Shown piece by piece: positions 17,241 to 59,210 of a stretch of DNA of 64,000 nucleotides (position 1 is its first letter; every line of letters begins with the position of its first letter). The notes under the pieces are model-generated. The model had not been told where the DNA came from and searched no databases. It worked only from the letters and a program-made list of their open reading frames with translations. A program made the translations under genes and the position numbers. Source of the DNA: Pedobacter nototheniae. Lineage in GTDB: Bacteria; Bacteroidota; Bacteroidia; Sphingobacteriales; Sphingobacteriaceae. The stretch covers positions 62,001-126,000 of the forward strand of contig NZ_RQRS01000015.1 in the NCBI RefSeq assembly GCF_004335085.1, given 5' to 3'.

Positions 17241-17408
17241 GGTTTCAAGGTTGAAAGCTCAGGCTTAAGAGTGCTTTACGTCGATTTCAAGGTTCTTAAC
17301 TCTGATTTCGGGGTTCAGAAGTCAGCATTCAAAGTTCAGGACGCTGGTTTCAGTGTTCTGAACTTCGATTTCAGGGCTTGAAAGTCTGGTTTCAAAGTTC
17401 AGAAGTCA
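17241..17408. repeat. Eight tandem 21-bp units upstream of the C39 transporter
   Basis: Units start at 17241, 17262, 17283, 17304, 17325, 17346, 17367 and 17388, each exactly 21 bases, for example GGTTTCAAAGTTCAGAAGTC plus A. The units differ from one another but keep TTTCA, GTTC and a purine-rich third part, so each is effectively three heptamers. A degenerate partial unit precedes 17241. It is noncoding and ends 50 bases before the transporter ATG. Confidence 0.85.
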
Positions 17409-53958: not shown

Positions 53959-55506
53959 ATGTCTATTTGTTGGGGTTACTCGCCAAAAATTGAAAAATAT
54001 ATTCCTTTGGCTGATTATCCTGCCGATCGTTATTTAATTATAGCTCAACAGGTAATTGAAAATTTGGGTTGGAAACTGAGTCATATTTCCGAAACAGGAC
54101 TGATTGCCTATACACCAATTTCTTTTCAATCTTTTAGTGAAGAAATCTCGATAAGAATTTTAAATAATTTTGCTGTTGTAAAAAGCGAGTGCGTGGGTAT
54201 TCAGCTTTTACTTAACGATTATGGAAAAAACGATTCCAATCTTGATAGGTTCTTTCATGAGTTTGAATATGTACAATATCATCTACAAGGTATTTGGGAG
54301 GAAAAACTAATTGCGTTTCATGAGCTGATTTTAAATCAGGATGATGGCTATTTTGAAAAAGCACCTTTAGCAACAAAAAATAAAATTAAAAACGTGTTGT
54401 ATCTCTTTTTGCCTCAAAAGGGATATACTGCAACGCCAATTATTTTGCTACTTAACGTTTTTTATTATGCCTTGATGTTTGCCATTTCAGCAGTTTATGC
54501 GGCTATTTTATTTTCAGGTCATGGAAATTCCGGAGATGTTGATTTTACGAAAGAGTTTGAACAACTGATTCTAAACTTCGGTGTAAATAACCGAAATCTG
54601 GTTTTAGAAGGGCAATATTGGCGATTATTTACCTGTCAATTTATTCATGGTTCTGCATGGCACATATTTTTTAATATGTATGCTTTAATTTATTTAGGAT
54701 TAATGATTGAGAATAAATTAGGATGGAAAAAATTCCTTTTTATTTATTTATTAAGTGGCGCTTGCGGTGGTTTGCTCAGTCTATCGTTCCATCAAATGGG
54801 TATTATGCTTGGTGCATCAGGCTCTGTAATGGGCTTGTATGGTGCATTTATCGCTTTGCTAATTAATAATTTTTACGAAAAACACGCAAGACAATCTTTA
54901 TTAATTAGTACCATGTGTGTGGTAATTTATGTCTTAATAAATGGTGCAATAGGTAAAAGGGTAGATAATGCTGCTCATATCGGTGGTTTTATTTCTGGGT
55001 TTGCATTGTGCTATATTTTAACTTTTAAACCAAGTAACACTATTAGATTTAAGCCGTTTTCCAGATATGCAGTTTGCACAATCTTGTTTGTACTATTATC
55101 TGGCATGGTTTTACACTATAGTCCAAAGTATGAAACTGAAAAATTTTATGAATTGAAAAATGATTTCAATAATAATTTATTGGGATTTAATAACTTAATG
55201 AGGATTAAAGTATCACAAAGTAAAGATGATAAGCTTGTGCTCATTAAATCAGAAGGCATTGAGGCGGCTAAAAAGAATATAGAAATTACTAAACAAATGC
55301 AGGTGCTTACCTTAAAGCCGAAAGATGCTTATGATAGGGCACAGAAGACTGAAATTGCACGCAAATGTTTTAAAGCTTCTATGTTAATGTATCGGGATGT
55401 AAAGGGGGATAGTATTATTAAATATAGCAAGGCAACATCAGCAGGAATTAGAGATGTTGTTATTCAATGTTATAAACTGAGTGATACTTTGGATAAAATG
55501 CCGTAA
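53959..55506 (+). CDS. Rhomboid-family intramembrane serine protease with N-terminal domain
   Basis: A 515-residue protein. A soluble N-terminal region of about 150 residues, of unknown fold, precedes the rhomboid core. The core has YWRLFTCQFIHGSAWHIFFN, the catalytic serine in LGASGSVMGLYGA (about residue 287), the catalytic histidine in NAAHIGGFISGF (about 338), and six or more helices. A soluble C-terminal tail of about 110 residues follows. It cleaves transmembrane substrates within the inner membrane. It starts 6 bases after the methyltransferase, suggesting cotranscription. The 2.1-kb repeat array begins 155 bases downstream. Confidence 0.9.
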   Translation: MSICWGYSPKIEKYIPLADYPADRYLIIAQQVIENLGWKLSHISETGLIAYTPISFQSFSEEISIRILNNFAVVKSECVGIQLLLNDYGKNDSNLDRFFHEFEYVQYHLQGIWEEKLIAFHELILNQDDGYFEKAPLATKNKIKNVLYLFLPQKGYTATPIILLLNVFYYALMFAISAVYAAILFSGHGNSGDVDFTKEFEQLILNFGVNNRNLVLEGQYWRLFTCQFIHGSAWHIFFNMYALIYLGLMIENKLGWKKFLFIYLLSGACGGLLSLSFHQMGIMLGASGSVMGLYGAFIALLINNFYEKHARQSLLISTMCVVIYVLINGAIGKRVDNAAHIGGFISGFALCYILTFKPSNTIRFKPFSRYAVCTILFVLLSGMVLHYSPKYETEKFYELKNDFNNNLLGFNNLMRIKVSQSKDDKLVLIKSEGIEAAKKNIEITKQMQVLTLKPKDAYDRAQKTEIARKCFKASMLMYRDVKGDSIIKYSKATSAGIRDVVIQCYKLSDTLDKMP

Positions 55507-55660
55507 GCTTTTAGGGGCACAATCCACGCGTTTAACTAGGCGTTTCTCACTATTATTATGGCTTTAGGGAGTTCAGAAAAGCGGAAGACTCTTAAATCTT
55601 TTACCGAGGTTACTAAGATTGCTTCGTGCCTTTTCTTAACAAGTTTGTACAATCATAAAG

Positions 55661-57742
55661 GTTAGTTTAGCGATTGCTTACACACTAACAAATCCAAACC
55701 ACTGTTTTTTAGTTAAGCTTCCAATCGGCATGGTCAATTATTCGGGAAGCACTGCGTAAGCCCACCCACTGCCTTAAACAGAAAAATTGCGAGCCGACAA
55801 TTTTTGGTTCTTTTTGTTGTCAAAAAGAATAAAGCCCACGCGGCAGCGGAAAGCATTGTCTTGCCAGACGGGCTTCGTACCTTTTTCTTAACAAAAAGGT
55901 ACCCAAAAGTCAAGGCTGGCACCCTTTCTTACATAGCACCATTATAATTCTTAAAGCAGTAATATGAGGCTTAGCCCAACACACAATCCCAACCCTCGCT
56001 GCATATTCCTTTGGTTATTCGTATAACGGATGTAAGTACAAGAATTATAATGAGCTATTCTACGAAATGCTGCTATGCCTGGGCGTAATCGGAAAGGGGT
56101 AGTAATTTTAATTAAAGTTAGTTTAGCGATTGCTTACACTCCAACAAGTCCAAACCACTGTTTTTTAGTTAAGCTTTCAATCGGCATGGTCAATTATTCG
56201 GGAAGCACAATCTAATCCCACCCACTGCCTTAAACAGAAAAATTGCGAGCCGACAATTTTTGGTTCTTTTTGTTGTCAAAAAGAATAAGGCCACCGCGGC
56301 AGCGGAATAAAGGTTTGTCTTGCCAGAGGGGCTTTGTACCTTTTTCTTAACAAAAAGGTACCCAAAAGTCAAGGCTTGCACCCTTTCTTACATAGCACCA
56401 TTATAATTTTTAAAGCAGTAATATGAGGCTTAGCCCGACACACAATCCCAACCCTCGCTGCATATTCCTTGGGTTATTCGTAAAACGTAAGCAAGTACAA
56501 GAATTATAATGAGCTATTCTGCGAAATGCTGCTATGCCTGGGCGTAATCTGATAATTCAGTAATATAATTTAAAGTTAGTTTAGCGATCGCCTATACTCC
56601 CAATAAGTCCAAACCACTGTTTTTTAGTTAAGCTTTAAATCGGCATGGTCAATTATTCGGGAAGCACAATCTAATCCCACCCACTGCCTTAAACAGAAAA
56701 ATTGCGAGCCGACAATTTTTGGTTCTTTTTGTTGTCAAATAGAATAAGGCCACCGCGGCAGCGGAATAAAGGTTTGTCTTGCCAGACGGGCTTTGTACCT
56801 TTTTCTTAACAAAAAGGTACCCAAAAGTCAAGGCTGGCATTCCTTTCTTGCATAGCAGCATTATAATTCAGACAGCAGTAATATGAGGCTTAGCCCAAAA
56901 CACAATCCTGCGCCCGCTGCATATTCCTTGGGTTATTCGTAAAACGTAAGCAAGTACAAGAATTATAATGAGCTATTCTGCGAAATGCTGCTATGCCTGG
57001 GTGTAATCGGGAAGGATAGTGATTTTAATTAAAGTTAGTTTAGCGATTGCTTATCATCCCAACAAATCCAAACCACTGTTTTTTAGTTAAGCTCTAAATC
57101 GGCATGGTCAATTATTCGGGAAGCACTACCCAAGCCTACCCATTGCCTTAAACAGAAAAATTGCGAGCCGACAATTTTTGGTTCTTTTTGTTGTCAAAAA
57201 GAATAGAAGCCTCCGCGGCAGCGGAACAAAGGTTTGTCTTGCCAGACGGGCTTCGTACCTTTTTCTTAACAAAAAGATACCCAAAAGTCAAGGCTTGCAC
57301 CCTTTCTTGGATAGCAACATTATAATTTTTAAAGCAGTAATATGAGGCTTAGCCCAACACACAATCCCAACCCTCGCTGCATATTCCTTTGGTTATTCGT
57401 ATAACGGATGTAAGTACAAGAATTCTAATGAGCTATTCTGCGAAATGCTGCTATGCCTGGGCGTAATCGGAAAGGGGTAGTAATTTTAATTAAAGTTAGT
57501 TTAGCGATTGCTTACACTCCAATAAATCCAAACCACTGTTTTTTAGTTAAGCTTTAAATCGGCATGGTCAATTATTCGGGAAGCACAATCTAATCCCACC
57601 CACTGCCTTAAACAGAAAAATTGCGAGCCGACAATTTTTGGTTCTTTTTGTTGTCAAAAAGAATAGAAGCCCCCGCGGCAGCGGAAAGCATTGTCTTGCC
57701 AGACGGGCTTCGTACCTTTTTCTTAACAAAAAGGTACCCAAA
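55661..57742. repeat. Tandem array of a ~458-bp unit, 4.5 copies
   Basis: Units begin at 55661, 56117, 56575, 57034 and 57495 with GTTAGTTTAGCGATTGC; spacings are 456, 458, 459 and 461 bases. The fifth copy stops at about 57742, 13 bases before the stop codon of the fucosidase gene. Each unit carries palindromes: TTCTTTTTG/CAAAAAGAA (55808-55829 in copy 1), GTACCTTTTT/AAAAAGGTAC (55877-55902) and CATTATAATTCTT/AAGAATTATAATG (55940-56052). Minus-strand frames of 62-70 codons in copies 1-3 are broken by a one-base insertion in copies 4 and 5, so I treat the unit as noncoding. A degenerate fragment (GATTGCTTCGTGCC, CTTAACAAG) precedes the first unit at about 55618-55645. The rest of 55507-55660 shows nothing else. 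Confidence 0.92.
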
Positions 57743-57755
57743 GATTACTATTAAC

Positions 57756-59210
57756 TTATTTTGTCGTTTTATAAATTCCAAATTCACTTAAGGTTATGCA
57801 AACTGGAGATTTGGTAATGTTTACTCTAACTTTGTTGGCTGTTACTGCAGTTTCAAGTTTAATTAATTTTTTCGCACCAACTGTTTGTCCTTCATAAACT
57901 TTTTTCCAAGTCCCATTTTCAAAAACCTCTACATTAAAATCTTCAATTCTTTGGCCCAAAGGAATATATTCCTGTAAACTAATAATATCAAAAGTTTTAG
58001 GCATCTTTAAATCAAGCTCTAAACTTGCTGTATGAACCTGATCTATAGTTGCCCAATAGGTTAGCTTATTATTATCGATAAGTTTAGCCGTGCCAAAATT
58101 TTTCCCACGGGTGTTGCTAGCTTTAACAATTGCGCCTTTTGCAAGGTTATTGGCAAAAGTATGTTTAATCATATTACCAAAACCCGCTAAAGCTGCCACA
58201 TCATCATCATGCAGTTTACCGCGAGTATCTGGTGCTAAACCTAAATCTAAACCGGCACCATGCCCAACACTTTTTAGGTATAAATCAAAAAGAGTTTCGG
58301 GACTTTTGGGTTTCTCGCTAGCGTGATAAAACCATCCTTTTCTTAAAGGAACATCACATTCTGCAGGCATCCAGAATTTGCCATTTCTAATGCCTGTTGG
58401 GCTTTGCGGATAGTTTGCTTGCCCAGGTACGGCTACATTTTTACCTTCTGGTGGAAGCGGTGTAAAAGTTGCCCAACTATTTTCTGCTGCGGTACCATCT
58501 TCGCTACCAACCCAGCGTACATCAGGACCAATATCACTAAAAATACTTGCCATAGGCTGCATTTTTCTAGTAATAGCCCAAGTATTTTTCCAGTCGTAAT
58601 AAACCGTATTATCTATAGATCTTTTCTCTTTAGCACCACCATAATAACCATCGCCTCCATTTGCACCATCATGCCAGCTCATAAAAAGTTTGCCATAGTT
58701 GCTATATAATTCCTTTAACTGTGCCTGGTAAATTGCTAAATATTTTTCAGTGGCATACAGAGCATTATTTCTATCCCAAGGAGAGCAATACACACCAAAT
58801 TTCAATCCGTTTTTGCGTGCAGCCTGCTCCACTTCTTTAACCATATCGCCTTTTCCATTTCTGAAAGGACTTTTAGATATGTTGTAGGCTGTTGTTTTTG
58901 TTGGCCAAAGGGCGAAGCCATCATGATGCTTTGATACCAGAATAACAGCTTTTAAGCCTCCAGCTTTTGCGGCTTTAATAATCTGCTCTGCATTAAAATC
59001 TGTGGGATTAAAGGTTTTTGGATCAGCATCACCAAAGCCCCATTCTTTATTTTCGAATGTAGTAGGTGTAAAATGAATTAAACCATAAACTTCTATATCG
59101 TGCCAGGCAAGCTGTCTTTTAGTAGGTACTGCACCATAAGGTTTAGGTGCTTTTTGAGCAAAACAAAATACGCTGCTGATGATGAGCAGTAAAAAGGTTA
59201 GAATCTTCAT
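57756..59210 (-). CDS. Alpha-L-fucosidase, GH29, with C-terminal F5/8-type domain
   Basis: A 484-residue secreted enzyme with signal peptide (ILTFLLLIISSVFCFA). The GH29 barrel shows GLIHFTPTTFENKEWG, ILVSKHHDGFALWPTK and FGVYCSPWDRN. The likely nucleophile aspartate is in LFMSWHDGANG. The C-terminal 130 residues form a beta-sandwich of the discoidin (F5/8 type C) type. It removes terminal fucose from glycans in the periplasm or outside the cell. It lies 41 bases downstream of the polysaccharide genes on the same strand. Confidence 0.92.
   Translation of the reverse strand: MKILTFLLLIISSVFCFAQKAPKPYGAVPTKRQLAWHDIEVYGLIHFTPTTFENKEWGFGDADPKTFNPTDFNAEQIIKAAKAGGLKAVILVSKHHDGFALWPTKTTAYNISKSPFRNGKGDMVKEVEQAARKNGLKFGVYCSPWDRNNALYATEKYLAIYQAQLKELYSNYGKLFMSWHDGANGGDGYYGGAKEKRSIDNTVYYDWKNTWAITRKMQPMASIFSDIGPDVRWVGSEDGTAAENSWATFTPLPPEGKNVAVPGQANYPQSPTGIRNGKFWMPAECDVPLRKGWFYHASEKPKSPETLFDLYLKSVGHGAGLDLGLAPDTRGKLHDDDVAALAGFGNMIKHTFANNLAKGAIVKASNTRGKNFGTAKLIDNNKLTYWATIDQVHTASLELDLKMPKTFDIISLQEYIPLGQRIEDFNVEVFENGTWKKVYEGQTVGAKKLIKLETAVTANKVRVNITKSPVCITLSEFGIYKTTK

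Follow-up and report, generated by a model that had tools for sequence, protein, structure and literature searches.

A tandem array of structured noncoding repeats in Pedobacter nototheniae, one of many assembled from probably mobile intergenic modules

Results

The array and its neighbouring genes

The window, a 64,000-nucleotide stretch of one contig of a genome from the genus Pedobacter, carries a tandem array between two convergent genes, a rhomboid-domain gene on the left and an alpha-L-fucosidase gene, whose identity was backed by PF01120, on the right. The stop codons of these genes are separated by 2249 nt, and the array ends 13 nt from that of the fucosidase gene, as had been stated in the initial annotation. 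The same annotation placed the array between surface-polysaccharide genes, which was roughly right: methyltransferase and glycosyltransferase genes are present farther out on the left, beyond the immediate rhomboid-domain neighbour. The features of the locus are as follows.

53959-55506, + strand: rhomboid-domain gene, left neighbour of the array
55507-55654, no strand: left flank from the rhomboid stop to the array, with an apparent half CGTC-type REP (AAGATTGCTTCGTGCC), from the sequence
55649-55881, + strand: module A copy 1 (nhmmer, A profile)
55863-56087, - strand: module B copy 1, on the strand opposite to A and convergent with it (blastn of the B query; nhmmer, B profile)
56105-56340, + strand: module A copy 2 (nhmmer, A profile)
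56322-56546, - strand: module B copy 2 (blastn of the B query)
56563-56799, + strand: module A copy 3 (nhmmer, A profile)
56781-57005, - strand: module B copy 3 (blastn of the B query)
57022-57259, + strand: module A copy 4 (nhmmer, A profile)
57241-57465, - strand: module B copy 4 (blastn of the B query)
57483-57716, + strand: module A copy 5, with the array end just 3' of it (nhmmer, A profile)
57712-57742, - strand: fragment of a fifth B, of which the 3' palindrome alone is left
57756-59210, - strand: alpha-L-fucosidase gene (PF01120), right neighbour of the array

The tandem array proved to be real: TRF placed it at 55656-57742 with a period of 459, 4.6 copies, 91% matches, 1% indels and a score of 3445, and no other TRF row for the window came near this score. 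The start-to-start spacings were 456, 458, 459 and 461 (repeat family D3), exactly those first reported. Five copies had been counted; there are five starts, the last belonging to an incomplete copy that stops at unit position 256, and the order is A-B-A-B-A-B-A-B-A followed by approximately 30 nt of a fifth B. The 10-bp stem GTACCTTTTT/AAAAAGGTAC with its CTTAAC loop, described as perfect, was found in all five copies and was perfect in four, the copy at 57255-57280 having one mismatch. Full copies were 93-94% identical to copy 2, so the cores that had been called near-identical are alike and not identical. In agreement with the description of the unit as noncoding, no open reading frame of at least 100 aa overlapped the array; a protein-coding tandem repeat was rejected on this ground and on that of the spacings (456-461), which are partly not multiples of three. 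Elsewhere in the window, TRF recorded a weak 21-bp tandem repeat (17283-17404; 5.8 copies, 62% matches).

Copies in the source genome

When the unit was searched against its own genome (5.26 Mb, 106 contigs), 97 matches were obtained, which established that it is present elsewhere. A profile of module A, built from the commonly shared part, identified 77 near-full A copies, no two of them identical, and grouping by strand and distance gave 31 sites. At 23 of these sites there was more than one A copy, counting partial as well as full copies, and these are thus arrays; a single A was found at the other eight, three of which were incomplete or truncated at the end of a contig. Long-unit arrays had been described as rare, a view that does not hold for a genome with 23, and the array in the window is one of these and no lone satellite.

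In the arrays of this genome a module A of approximately 230 bp alternates with a spacer (A-spacer-A-spacer-A). The 59 intervals comprised 24 with module B, 30 with a CGTC-type REP and 5 others. B spacers measured 218-223 bp, with one of 358 (approximately 222 bp in the window), REP-carrying spacers 118-262 bp, and the array unit overall 350-460 bp. Four arrays (L032, L033, L034 and L035) had mixed spacers, and in all four the B spacers lay 5' and the REP-type spacers 3'. The genome therefore holds an interspersed, intergenic mosaic of palindromic modules of the BIME kind, with A alternating with B or REP spacers at 31 sites. A and B themselves do not qualify as CGTC-tagged REPs (palindromes of 20-40 nt); they have no such end, are 170-225 nt long, and the REP is found in the second spacer class only. 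A CRISPR array was rejected since the repeat is approximately 230 bp and spacers are common to different arrays.

The mean identity of A copies was 0.902 within arrays (95 pairs) compared with 0.854 between arrays (2830 pairs), which indicates that the arrays are not very recent; the proposal of recent amplification was therefore not supported.

Where both neighbours were available (25 gene pairs, tallied by eye), array sites were flanked by 15 co-directional, 6 convergent and 4 divergent pairs. Gene pairs of every orientation around the sites disfavour a cis-regulatory or terminator role. Within co-directional pairs A was sense in 7 cases and antisense in 8 (by eye), so that there is no orientation preference. 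Mechanically called open reading frames of at least 100 aa overlapped 3 of the 31 sites. It had also been suggested that recombination at the array could alter polysaccharide gene content; this idea found no support, because the sites are scattered among genes of all orientations and the few annotated neighbours of A in relatives are ordinary.

A small insert of approximately 50-100 nt (TTTATTAATGGTTC...GAGCTCG...) was seen between X and P of A (elements of the fold described below) in more than one species, as if some other element were targeting the hairpin (L034:2623-2808; L090:368-551 and 1593-1776; G136 matches of 180-229 nt).

Element families across Pedobacter and the phylum

A and B are separate dispersed element families found Pedobacter-wide. 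Parts of the unit occur separately in relatives, with 212-436 alone in G010 and 33-195 or 82-182 elsewhere. A covariance model of the A core, applied to the best 23 scored candidates per genome, detected A in 76 of 145 genus genomes. Across the phylum A was found in 11 of 395 genomes, comprising 2 from the genus, 5 from the family and 4 from another family, and the matches from beyond the genus were all weak. Eight fully scored genomes had 7-47 A matches, a few among the weakest being reverse-strand echoes; there were 47 in the single-contig genome G136 and 31 in G161. Conservation fell away approximately 36 nt upstream of the 131-nt A core and immediately downstream of it, which makes A approximately 170 nt long. 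Other species also carry tandem arrays with A, with units of 229, 605, 260, 212 and about 424 bp, some of them in the single-contig genome G008.

The elements had no match in plasmid and phage records. In a scan of 4227 Rfam families the window gave nothing above the gathering cut-off and the array nothing credible, and none of the Rfam matches in 15 loci that contain A, B or arrays covered A or B. No paper describing the A/B family was found by title or abstract, in a search made largely without subscription journals, and a literature text search for the element motifs returned unrelated work only. At 2 of the 15 loci, Flavo-1 RNA (RF01705) matched within approximately 200 nt of A with a score at or just under gathering (L120:1239-1319; L102:1752-1843).

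Empty sites in relatives

The rhomboid gene adjoins the fucosidase gene in 27 of 80 Pedobacter fucosidase loci. In all 27 the genes are convergent, their tblastn matches lie 10-107 nt apart, and the site of the array is empty; the sequences of 15 of these loci were inspected. In the closest relative, G104, the gap is approximately 12 nt. The array in the window is a lineage-specific insertion.

Four other array sites gave the same result. The first site in L022 was without an array in 2 of 2 relatives (20 and 47 nt, compared with 1475) and the second in 4 of 4 (44-201 nt, compared with 752); L023 was without one in 1 of 1 (239 nt, compared with 1664) and L032 in 5 of 5 (59-142 nt, compared with about 2130). 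This search covered 2966 of 4480 nt from eight array sites; L035, L041 and part of L033 lay outside it, and L030 and the searched part of L033 are not among the four results. G104 had nine matches, all at separate places, one of them in the same A-B context as the unit in the window.

A conserved fold in A and in B

The A fold consists of stem a (CCGGC/GCCGG), stem b (8 bp and a ninth pair) and hairpin P. In copy 2 of A, and for P in copy 2 of B, its parts are located as follows.

56182-56185, + strand: stem a, 5' arm CGGC, with partner 56249-56252 (covariation)
56191-56198, + strand: stem b, 5' arm CAATTATT, with partner 56238-56245 (covariation)
56252-56256, + strand: X arm GACAA, the complement of the hairpin loop TTGTC at 56273-56277 (covariation scan, pairs absent from its model)
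56264-56285, + strand: P hairpin, TTCTTTTTG-ttgt-CAAAAAGAA (covariation)
56336-56361, - strand: P palindrome of B, 10-bp stem with CTTAAC loop (repeat listing and covariation)

In an alignment of 23 A sequences built from sequence alone, 94.3% of cells were paired and the covariation score was 0.209, compared with at most 0.086 for slid partners. Of 25 dereplicated copies, 3 that had large insertions or deletions were left out of this alignment (A1), and one copy from the window was included. Consistent with this result, 134 matches (127 distinct) were 96.4% paired with a covariation score of 0.284, compared with at most 0.084 when slid. Both sides had changed in 20 of 26 pairs, pairs of pseudoknot topology included (counts not corrected for the tree). 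A scan for covarying columns ranked the X-X' pair 81-98 first, 24-62 second and 79-100 fourth, and placed 80-99 in the top 30. None of these pairs was in the model behind the scan; alignment A3 was made to a model that held stems a, b and P, without X or pair 24-62.

A helix scan of 22 B sequences, also aligned by sequence alone, recovered P (10 bp) and X (6 bp) together with a 5-bp helix and a further helix of 10 bp, in which a single pair took as many as three Watson-Crick types. B was 96.3% paired with a covariation score of 0.476, compared with at most 0.108 for slid partners, and both sides had changed in 16 of 31 pairs, again including pairs of pseudoknot topology and without tree correction. 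On one of five measures, further pair types, B did not exceed the shuffles (28 compared with a mean of 30.7).

A and B each have their own 5' fold and the same kind of 3' end, a P hairpin with X upstream. In both families the order is X-P-X'-P', and the hairpin loop X' is complementary to the upstream X, an arrangement compatible with a tight pseudoknot or with a pair of alternative hairpins. The strong covariation indicates that the structures of A and B, with both pairings, have been kept by selection. On the modelled strand there were 45 G-U pairs compared with 21 A-C mispairs, an excess that weakly favours folding of that strand. In single-sequence folding the elements were not unusually stable (z = -1.31 and -0.52) and did no better than many shuffles. 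An intrastrand triplex (PMC4666352) was rejected as the main explanation and is possible at the P region. The repeated structured element that had been proposed is thus borne out by a strong covariation signal in both A and B, with a fold that may act as RNA or as single-stranded DNA.

294-bp elements and candidate enzymes

In G161, A lies within a 294-bp element with near-identical copies and sharp ends. Eleven loci were fetched; the element lay in a REP loop at every site that had a left flank (9 of 9), and likewise at every site with a complete right flank (9 of 9). The REP is split as CTTCGnnnn(G/A)CT followed, beyond the element, by CAGGATGACA or a sequence close to it; intact REPs that match the strict form numbered 4 in G161 and 7 in G136. 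G136 showed the same layout of REP and element in a more decayed state. With regard to a possible MITE, G161 showed the sharp ends, ATTGACGTT/AACGTCAAT near them and a possible 2-nt CT duplication; sharp ends of this type were not seen at A copies of the source genome. At L290 the same ends surround a shorter sequence without A, from which it follows that the ends and A are separable modules. The 294-bp element encodes no recombinase and no protein.

A RAYT was rejected as the direct partner, since A or B was present in 0 of 20 RAYT loci. Over 144 genomes, 73 had both A and a Y1 transposase, 3 had A only, 9 had Y1 only and 59 had neither, a strong correlation that is confounded by phylogeny, both being commoner in the clade of the source genome (judged by eye from identities). 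Two fairly close relatives, G112 and G117, were positive for neither. The sole Y1 transposase match of the source genome, L325 (G000:C8:71822-71968), has an in-frame stop. Of 12 A-bearing genomes, 4 (G136, G008, G104 and G107) gave no match to the IS110 domain PF01548 at E≤0.001. No lagging-strand bias of the single-strand transposition type was found in G136, where 3964 of 5000 shuffles did as well as the 35 copies used (weak and reverse-strand matches left out). A flanked cargo gene was rejected; ten stretches around neighbouring A copies had no common gene pattern, and the four proteins annotated from them were all ordinary.

In G149, IS110 copies were observed beside ends like those of the 294-bp element (L343, L344, L347 and L352), and at L352 an apparent right end ran head-to-tail into a left end, which resembles the junction of a tandem or of a circle.

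Discussion

In our judgement the arrays are fairly likely to have arisen by lineage-specific insertion of mosaic, noncoding, non-autonomous structured mobile repeats, followed by amplification through recombination between A copies. One strand would fold, either as RNA or as single-stranded DNA, and an enzyme supplied in trans would recognise the fold and copy or move the element to new intergenic sites, often beside or within REP sequences. Two A copies in direct orientation could then give rise to A-(spacer-A)n by unequal exchange or replication slippage. The A and B repeats are probably selfish, and the arrays probably of no specific use to the host. The many copies and sites in the genome, the array grammar, the empty sites in relatives, the genus-wide families, the G161 elements, the covariation and the lack of an orientation preference count for this explanation. 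Five points stand against it: neither A nor B has a linked transposase (RAYT in 0 of 20 loci, IS110 missing in 4 of 12 genomes); the A copies of the source genome do not have the sharp ends found in G161; single sequences show no unusual folding stability; the conserved structure is equally expected of a functional host RNA; and the fixed spacer order, B 5' of REP in 4 of 4 arrays, is not predicted by simple unequal exchange. A more specific proposal, which we hold only tentatively and think rather unlikely, is that A and B belong to a novel superfamily of noncoding RNAs that are mobile, in which the transcript would fold into a 5' domain and a 3' pseudoknot (the hairpin loop pairing with the upstream stretch), a trans enzyme would recognise this form and copy it into new sites, and arrays would come from multimeric intermediates.

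The structural evidence would also suit duplicated noncoding RNA genes of the host, or duplicated parts of regulatory RNAs, in which case the arrays would supply more of a structured RNA that the host can use. Strong covariation, the pseudoknot topology, the sharp fall in conservation at the element edges and the 45 to 21 ratio of G-U to A-C mispairs, as if the modelled strand folds, are all in its favour. We nevertheless consider it unlikely, given that matches range from 0 to 47 between species, orthologous sites are empty, no orientation is preferred, the Bacteroidota-type promoter pattern was unmatched within the array and no Rfam family corresponds. That the arrays are stacked transcription terminators or insulators between genes is very improbable. 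The 14 terminator-like matches in the array exceed the 2.6 (sd 1.5) of shuffles, and the window array does lie between two convergent genes; however, the repeated terminator-like stem requires GAGCC/GGTTC and does not persist in relatives with GTTTC, arrays are also found between divergent and co-directional genes, and relatives have no arrays at the same sites.

A similarly low probability attaches to the idea that A is a guide of the bridge-RNA type and that the 294-bp elements are IS110 elements without a recombinase, moved in trans. The G161 element lies between CT dinucleotides inside REPs, its 294 bp are close to the 298-bp joined ends of IS621 (PMC11208160), and G161 has six IS110 matches. 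Against this, the four A-bearing genomes named above lack PF01548, and among 24 IS110 loci only L349 has A, approximately 0.85 kb from the domain match; B-type elements are found near L330 and L353. By eye, several IS110 copies of G149 seem to have gone into elements that have these ends, or next to them, and do not look like the source of the elements; inspection by eye also gave no target-complementary guide. Least probable, and in our view scarcely credible, is that the array in the window is an assembly artefact. The assembly is a draft of 106 contigs, two of which (C16 and C29) end inside these repeats, but all 77 A copies differ, the genes on either side of the array in this contig also adjoin each other at 27 syntenic loci, and similar arrays are present in single-contig G008. 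The exact copy number of the array is uncertain.

For structured mobile repeats as favoured here, the closest known kind is BIME-like, and we infer the mechanism of movement. BIMEs and REPs are proposed to be non-autonomous mobile elements (PMC2817692). A and B are likewise intergenic, interspersed, mosaic and palindromic, and Y1 transposases are present in the same Pedobacter genomes; they differ in having modules of 170-225 nt with multi-helix covariation of the pseudoknot type, whereas REPs are 20-40 nt, and in adjoining none of 20 RAYT genes.

The arrays of Neisseria are named NIME. Large clusters of CGTC-tagged REPs (dRS3) are reported there, and no dedicated transposase is reported for them (PMC3733652). 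The second spacer class resembles these in its REP, which reads CGTC...GCAATC, and A and B have REPs beside or around them, but A and B are not REPs and the array unit is 350-460 bp. Like the REP-targeting insertion sequences described in PMC1525189, the G161 elements lie inside REP loops; unlike them, they encode no protein. IS621 has 298-bp joined ends, a REP target with a CT core and a 177-nt RNA (PMC11208160), and the 294-bp element is similar in size, CT ends, REP target and an RNA-sized structured core; A elements differ in having no recombinase, and IS110 is not consistently present. The STAXI motif consists of tandem pseudoknots in bacterial DNA (PMC2864571). The array is likewise made of tandem units of the pseudoknot type, but the gene context reported there is unlike that of A and B, which have no Rfam match. 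PMC2864571 also lists a single Pedobacter motif, Pedo-repair (RF01715), numbered among the Rfam families, and this motif was not matched when the window was scanned with Rfam.

Bacterial repeats are for the most part very short palindromes or transposons of modest size. The genus studied here carries many long noncoding elements with covarying folds of the pseudoknot type, and in one lineage these are stacked into 23 arrays; the initial observation was correct and its meaning under-stated. If confirmed, the two alignments would offer a handle on the enzyme that reads the fold, a means of testing RNA against single-stranded DNA, and a way to account for a type of repeat at which Pedobacter assemblies break.
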